This document shows, in pieces, positions 28,026 to 29,217 of a DNA stretch of 57,473 nucleotides. Each line of letters begins with the position of its first letter. Position 1 is the first letter of the stretch. The notes below the pieces were generated by a model, which saw nothing but the letters and a program-made list of their open reading frames with translations, ran no database searches and was not told where the DNA came from. Source of the stretch: Methanobacteriota archaeon (GTDB lineage Archaea; Halobacteriota; Methanosarcinia; Methanosarcinales; Methanosarcinaceae); the NCBI GenBank assembly GCA_030054735.1, contig JASGVX010000070.1, positions 1 through 57,473 on the forward strand. Reading direction: 5' to 3'. The translations under genes were made by a program, and so were the position numbers.

Positions 28026-29036
28026 TCAGTCGTCCACTTGTTTTATGTTCATATTAATTGATACTTCTGCGATATCAGCACTGTATTCGGCTACTCTTCT
28101 CAGGCTCTCAAGGATCATGCTGTGTTCGATACTTCCTTTTTCTTCGGGATCCCTTGATTCGAGGGTAAAGCCAAACTGGGAAACATCTTTGGCTTCGACC
28201 ACGATTTGGTTTATAGCCTCGAGGTCCTCTTCCTGCATGGAATCTATGGATCTCTCAAACGCTTTTATGGAGAGTTCAGCCATCTTGAAAATAGGATCAT
28301 CACTGCTGAGCCCGTACTCCATTTTGAGGACATTTCTGGCGATCCTTACTGCATGGTCTCCTACGCGCTCTATGCTCTTGGTAATGAGCCTGTACCCGAG
28401 ACATTCACGTGGGTGCCTGACCCCGATCTTTTCTGAGAGTTCGATATCTTCGATAGAAGCTTTGAGCTGGCGTACAGATAATAAGTAGAAGCGGTCTACA
28501 TCATCATCTCTCTGGACGACGTCCTCAGCGATCTCAACGTTGTGGTCCCGAAGGGCTGTCATGGAGTCTTCAAGCATTGAAAGAACGAGCCCATACATGT
28601 TTTTGATGACGCGGTTAAGTGGCAGGTCATTGTAGTTCAGGAGGCACTGGAAAACAAGTTCGTTCCTGGATTCCTCTACAAGCTCGAGGCCTATGAGTTT
28701 CTGGCGCACAGAGTCTTTTATAAACTTGCGGTCATAGGCGCTGAAACCTTTTTTGGTTGTCAGCTGGATTATATCATAACCTACAAGGTAATGAGAAATA
28801 AGGATCCTTAAATTGTTTTCCGCACTGTCGGAATGAATATAATCTATAGATGCCTTAAGAACAGAATGCTCTTTCGAAGCCGCGCTGGATGAAACGAGCA
28901 GAGTTTTGTTGGGCATGGGTGTGAGAGTAAGCGTGTCCCCTACCTCAAGCCCTATATCCCTAACCCATTTTATGGGGAGAGATACAATATAAGTAGAATT
29001 TCCGGTAAACTGGACTTTTCTTTTATCCTTGGTAAT
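28026..29036 (-). CDS. AbrB-PhoU transcriptional/phosphate-uptake regulator, probable ATT start
   Basis: From the first ATG (28916) the protein would have 296 residues, but the same frame continues upstream for 40 codons. That stretch reads 'KRKVQFTGNSTYIVSLPIKW', a SpoVT-AbrB swapped-hairpin DNA-binding domain. It begins 'ITKDK' at ATT 29036-29034, 7 nt after a perfect AGGAGG (29049-29044); no ATG, GTG or TTG lies in this frame upstream. I therefore call a start at ATT, giving 336 residues. The remainder (about 120-330) is a PhoU-like helical domain ('ITKSIERVGDHAVRIARNVL'). AbrB-PhoU fusions are common in archaea and thought to act in phosphate control. No phosphate transporter is nearby. 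Confidence 0.8.
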   Translation of the reverse strand: MTKDKRKVQFTGNSTYIVSLPIKWVRDIGLEVGDTLTLTPMPNKTLLVSSSAASKEHSVLKASIDYIHSDSAENNLRILISHYLVGYDIIQLTTKKGFSAYDRKFIKDSVRQKLIGLELVEESRNELVFQCLLNYNDLPLNRVIKNMYGLVLSMLEDSMTALRDHNVEIAEDVVQRDDDVDRFYLLSVRQLKASIEDIELSEKIGVRHPRECLGYRLITKSIERVGDHAVRIARNVLKMEYGLSSDDPIFKMAELSIKAFERSIDSMQEEDLEAINQIVVEAKDVSQFGFTLESRDPEEKGSIEHSMILESLRRVAEYSADIAEVSINMNIKQVDD

Positions 29037-29217
29037 AAAAAAGCCTCCTGAGGAGATAATAATGGATATTATAAGATCTATATAGACAATGTTGATTATA
29101 AAAGTATCCTAGAAATCAGTAGTTCCGATTTGATGTATTCCTGAGGACTATTCCTGATCATTTCTGATTTTTTTCCTAAGTATTTCACAGAAAACTCGTT
29201 CTTAGGGCTGTCTTAAG

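Follow-up and report, generated by a model that had tools for sequence, protein, structure and literature searches.

The AbrB-PhoU gene and its start region

The window, a stretch of 57,473 nucleotides from a methane-producing member of the Methanosarcinaceae (assembly GCA_030054735.1, contig JASGVX010000070.1), carries on its minus strand a gene encoding an AbrB-PhoU regulator. The features of the gene and of the region upstream are as follows.

28026..29036, minus strand: gene of the AbrB-PhoU regulator with ATT as its start, 336 codons and a stop
28026-28028, minus strand: stop codon of the gene
28329..28607, minus strand: PhoU domain, the best of two stretches, residues 144-236 (Pfam)
28893..29012, minus strand: AbrB/MazE-type DNA-binding domain, residues 9-48 (Pfam PF04014, 31.4 bits against a cut-off of 24.7)
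28914..28916, minus strand: first canonical in-frame start, ATG at codon 41, rejected as start
29034..29036, minus strand: start codon ATT
29044..29049, minus strand: Shine-Dalgarno sequence AGGAGG, separated from ATT by 7 nt; most orthologues carry AGGGGG or AGGAGG here
29078..29085, minus strand: palindrome CTATATAG, kept in most Methanosarcina orthologues in the alignment; putative regulatory element
29093..29103, minus strand: TATA-box-like element TTTTATAATCA, with TTTATATATCA or a similar sequence in most orthologues; role suggested by the alignment
29109..29111, minus strand: in-frame stop TAG, 24 codons before ATT

The first-pass annotation of this DNA had placed the start at ATT 29036-29034, 7 nt after a perfect AGGAGG, and had stated that no ATG, GTG or TTG precedes the ATG at codon 41. 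Both observations hold: the AGGAGG lies at 29049-29044, and the frame is free of these three codons all the way from the TAG at 29111-29109 down to codon 41. The gene in the window thus combines proper Shine-Dalgarno spacing with the absence of a canonical start before conserved coding sequence. The matching anti-Shine-Dalgarno sequence, at the 16S rRNA 3' end GGATCACCTCCT, is present in two members of Methanosarcina, the genus to which the genome belongs. No conserved case of translational coupling to an upstream ORF was seen when the loci were inspected by eye.

Read from ATT, the protein has an N-terminal AbrB/MazE-type domain and C-terminal PhoU domains, the latter matching PF01895 in two stretches (85.2 bits against a cut-off of 23.5). 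The SpoVT-AbrB domain that had been recognized by eye ahead of the first ATG is borne out by the Pfam match (MazE_antitoxin/AbrB), and a start at ATG 28916 would remove almost the whole of it. Other archaeal AbrB-PhoU regulators share the domain order, AbrB/MazE followed by two PhoU stretches, but most of those read start with ATG, apart from the Methanosarcinaceae, ANME-3 and an ANME-2 group that includes record L187. In L187 itself (an ANME-2 record, L187:1763-7005) the genes pstC-pstA-pstB-phoU, each of them named by NCBIfam above its cut-off, are followed by an AbrB-PhoU gene with an ATC start, an adjacency that lends support to a possible role of the AbrB-PhoU product in phosphate uptake control. 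Among the open reading frames listed around the window copy there is no pst gene beside it; from their sequences, we take its neighbours to be enolase and ABC-type genes.

The TATA-like element and the palindrome CTATATAG, located some 42-67 nt upstream of ATT, are strongly conserved in the genus; the remaining intergenic region drifts. Since the palindrome is close to the expected transcript start, it is possibly an operator.

The start codon in orthologues and in a paralogue

In a sample of 30 Methanosarcina genomes a close copy of the gene was present in 27 (L001-L027). The column corresponding to the ATT of the window was ATT in 22 of these best copies, ATC in five and a canonical codon in none. 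Twelve further copies or fragments from the genus (L037-L048) all had ATT, although two of them are broken (L047 and L048), some have canonical codons further upstream, and three (L041, L042 and L045) carry an additional ATG or GTG somewhere in codons 2-5. Judged by these alignments, an ATT start is not unusual among orthologues of the window gene. The comparison of orthologous starts, suggested in the first-pass annotation, excludes within the genus both an ATG at the ATT column and a local sequence error, the latter being ruled out by the 27 genomes; ATG occurs at this column only in other lineages.

The codons behind ATT behave as coding sequence. Across 26 copies (the divergent L027 being left out of this analysis), the 39 columns for each codon position in codons 2-40 included five variable ones at the first position, three at the second and 31 at the third, and an average pair of copies differed at 0.71 amino acids as opposed to 11.33 third bases. 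Since variation falls almost only at third positions, this stretch is translated. Taken together with the uninterrupted ATT/ATC column, this coding signature argues for the earlier assignment of ATT as the start.

Beyond the genus, near-cognate codons (hereafter AUH, for ATT, ATC or ATA) are common in the same column. Counting fetched loci that fall into clear groups and match the N-terminal motif, the column was ATC or ATT in four of four loci of group g5, two of two of g4 and two of two of g14 (ANME-3), ATA or ATT in all seven of g12, AUH in ten and ATG in four of the 14 loci read in the Methanolobus group (g11), and ATG in all five of Methanohalophilus (g10); left out were several further listed places, mostly of the Methanolobus group, ten loci without the motif (L163, L165, L166, L241, L269, L270 and L275-L278), and loci that belong to none of the clear groups, such as L126, L140, L162, L217, L221, L222, L226, L228, L236, L238, L240 and L242-L246. 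Five copies of the ANME-2 group (L100, L101, L185, L187 and L191) have ATC, and the ANME-2c-type copies (L188-L190) and those of ANME-1 have ATG in exactly the ATT column.

In a tree of the orthologues (type A) the fewest ATG/AUH changes were three, and the fewest start-codon changes of any kind 15; this is a quick, unrooted tree with long branches, built from 87 rows that represent 84 distinct genes (three pairs are duplicates, and L223 was left out), with the start column assigned by hand and taken one codon later for the Methanolobus and Methanohalophilus rows. We read it as an initiator AUG in the outer relatives, a single appearance of AUH at, or close to, the origin of the Methanosarcinaceae together with that ANME-2 group, and two regains of AUG, a direction that is our reading of the tree rather than a product of rooting. 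The ATG starts of Methanohalophilus and of part of Methanolobus show that the gene can do without the weak codon.

A distant paralogue of the regulator (about 32% identity) has a similar start. At its start column, position -3 before RKVQ, 34 of 36 Methanosarcinaceae loci have AUH (ATA 27, ATC 7) and two have ATG. In locus L144 a stop codon directly precedes the ATA, which must accordingly be the first codon of the frame, and in all 13 loci from Methanosarcina and genome G035 the open frame is free of canonical codons upstream. The start is ambiguous in five loci because a canonical codon lies just upstream, namely an ATG that precedes the ATA column by two codons in L138, L145, L147 and L149, and a GTG that precedes it by three in L154. 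A sister family (f5), probably Methanotrichaceae, has ATG at the paralogue column in 20 of 20 loci.

Other genes with near-cognate starts

We screened 400 kb around the AbrB-PhoU gene in each of two Methanosarcina genomes for conserved frames with near-cognate starts, using a Shine-Dalgarno criterion that misses AGGGGG-type sites, so that the AbrB-PhoU gene itself went unflagged. Weak-start screens run before this one were set aside because shadow frames and blast alignments overrunning into the Shine-Dalgarno sequence dominated their output. The screen flagged 14 frames out of 206 conserved ones, and inspection by eye left the following three.

L295:7881-8606, minus strand: SufC-like ATPase of Methanosarcina and relatives (loci L306-L335)
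L336:14634-15446, plus strand: NadX-like aspartate dehydrogenase (loci L356-L385)
L286:5018-5761, minus strand: cupredoxin-like secreted protein (loci L386-L394)

The names NadX and cupredoxin are what we take these proteins to be from their sequences, not database calls. The other 11 flagged frames were dropped because they lay inside repeat proteins, were shadow frames of rRNA or had a canonical start nearby. One of these, a pilin-like gene (G001/G007, frame A|-|236959), is a possible further case: its initiator column reads ATA in one of the two species and ATG in the second, but a TTG follows three codons later.

In the SufC-like gene, which matches NCBIfam SufC from residue 2 onwards with a score below the cut-off, ATT stands behind GAGGTG in 30 of 30 loci, and in 13 of them a stop codon directly precedes it; in ten outer loci the start is ATT or ATC in eight, ATG in L406 and not clear in L409. 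The NadX-like gene is more variable, with ATG in 17, ATA in 11 and ATT in two of 30 loci, always behind an AGGAG-type site, and with ATG in ten of ten outer loci; there are at least three changes between ATG and non-ATG starts. The cupredoxin-like gene has GGAGGTTTTAAG followed by ACG in seven loci (L386-L390, L392 and L393) and ATG in two (L391 and L394), these being the nine of 19 matches that reach the N-terminus.

The resulting rate of near-cognate starts, three in 206 or, counting the AbrB-PhoU gene, four in 206, is a rough one, as the region was chosen around that gene and some of the 206 are shadow frames. The AUH or ACG starts of the SufC-, NadX- and cupredoxin-like genes show that regulators are not the only carriers of this trait. 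On this comparative evidence, near-cognate initiation behind a Shine-Dalgarno sequence is a recurrent and conserved trait of the Methanosarcinaceae.

Where translation starts, and why at AUU

We consider it very probable that the full-length AbrB-PhoU regulator starts at AUU, and that near-cognate starts (AUU, AUC, AUA and, in one gene, ACG) are functional and maintained in this regulator, in its distant paralogue and in a few other genes of the Methanosarcinaceae. A strong Shine-Dalgarno sequence would set AUU in the P site, where the initiator Met-tRNA would decode it despite a third-base mismatch, so that the protein would still begin with methionine; the weak codon would lower the rate of initiation and make it depend on the Shine-Dalgarno sequence and on the stringency of aIF1, and the regulator would thereby be held at a low level. 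Sequence comparison shows that the codon sits in the initiator column, that translated sequence follows it, and that lineages differ in having AUG or AUH there.

One may also consider that the real start is a canonical codon downstream, either the ATG 28916 at codon 41 in the window or the in-frame GTG that many orthologues have at codon 18, inside the AbrB domain; the product would then be shorter and its AbrB domain no longer intact, and the conserved stretch upstream would have to be something else. Such a start is highly improbable, given that codons 2-40 are under strong amino-acid constraint and encode a Pfam domain, that the GTG is not conserved, being absent in the window and in several other copies, that codon 41 is TTG in L012, and that the ANME lineages with ATG begin at the ATT column. 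Only slightly less improbable is a start that lies upstream of ATT, whether at a different codon or in a different frame with a subsequent frameshift, in which case ATT would be an internal isoleucine codon. Such a codon would likewise vary among ATT, ATC and ATA, and in five of the 26 Methanosarcina copies the open frame does contain a canonical codon ahead of ATT, but most copies have none, the codons preceding ATT show no conservation at the protein level, and seven of the 26 have in-frame stops 4-7 codons upstream, while in L144 and in 13 of the 30 SufC-like loci the stop lies directly before the start. The Shine-Dalgarno spacing, too, points at ATT, and it is this codon that ATG replaces in other lineages.

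The purpose of the AUU start is a different matter, and here there is a serious rival: that the start is real yet without regulatory meaning, because Methanosarcinaceae tolerate near-cognate codons behind a strong Shine-Dalgarno sequence, so that these drift in and stay. We regard this as quite possible, though not the better bet. The AUH and ACG starts of the SufC-, NadX- and cupredoxin-like genes, whose functions are unrelated, fit it well, as does the free interchange of ATT, ATC and ATA, with 15 changes in the type A tree. Against it, both deep paralogues keep AUH over most of the family with ATG a single mutation away, a persistence which suggests a regulatory purpose, and only three ATG/AUH switches fit the tree. 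A low level of the regulator would plausibly fit the retention of AUH over some 15 codon changes. Low and tunable output would be the likeliest purpose of the AUU codon.

The first-pass annotation had pointed to bacterial IF3, and an infC-like autoregulation, in which synthesis from AUU responds to the level of a fidelity factor that the gene itself controls, would have some appeal, AUU being the classic IF3-sensitive codon according to passages of PMC9410913 and archaeal aIF1 being described in PMC6237735 as discriminating against non-AUG codons. However, this parallel finds no support: IF3 discriminates against its own start codon, while the product here is an AbrB-PhoU protein and no initiation factor, and 17 of the 18 aIF1 loci read begin with ATG, preceded by GGAGG (the search pattern gave no match for L427). 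We therefore consider such a loop unlikely.

Comparison with known systems

Close parallels to an AUU start on a regulator gene come from bacteria. In Staphylococcus aureus, the genes infC, ccpN and cvfC1 have AUA or AUU starts that, like those described here, stand behind a strong Shine-Dalgarno sequence and are conserved between species; in the passages of PMC13009471 that concern them, the ccpN start is also found in Bacillus subtilis and one of the genes encodes a transcription repressor. AUU starts are rare, as remarked in the first-pass annotation, and are known to lower initiation: with S. aureus reporters they reached about 10% of the AUG level when the medium was poor and, for ccpN, up to 30% when it was rich (PMC13009471). 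The bacterial cases differ in that they operate with IF3 and are described as proven by ribosome profiling and reporters, whereas the archaeal one involves aIF1, comprises two regulator paralogues and several other genes, and is known from sequence comparison alone. In Escherichia coli, infC and pcnB have AUU starts that limit translation (PMC9410913, in the passage on these genes); infC is autoregulated by its own product, and the AbrB-PhoU gene has no such link. For archaea, aIF1 is described as destabilising initiation complexes on non-AUG mRNA (PMC6237735). Given this effect and the S. aureus weak starts, reduced and stringency-sensitive output would be expected.

In its passage on the subject a review names no archaeal start codons besides AUG, GUG and UUG (PMC7531240), and in the titles and passages of open-licence papers we found no report of AUU, AUC, AUA or ACG starts in archaeal genes; conserved AUU/AUA starts on regulators are thus documented for bacteria, as in S. 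aureus ccpN, with none found reported for archaea. Ribo-seq of Methanosarcina mazei did detect non-ATG starts of small ORFs in the genus, but according to the relevant passages these are TTG, GTG and, in 5%, CTG (PMC11456600); a whole-word search of the main text of that paper gave no occurrence of ATT, AUU or PhoU.

A broader reading, which we put forward tentatively, is that AUU, AUC, AUA and even ACG are standing, selected starts in roughly one to two percent of Methanosarcinaceae genes, an archaeal class of weak starts clipped by annotation, and that the two AbrB-PhoU paralogues have kept AUH since about the family ancestor so that their synthesis follows aIF1 stringency and ribosome supply. 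Standard gene finders are likely to cut such proteins short. If this reading is correct, a major archaeal group draws on more start codons than AUG, GUG and UUG, and gene finders cut the DNA-binding domain from the members of a conserved regulator family and strip SufC and NadX of their first residues. These genes would then also provide natural, conserved weak-start mRNAs for studying start selection in archaea, which have aIF1 and no IF3, testable in the genetically tractable Methanosarcina.
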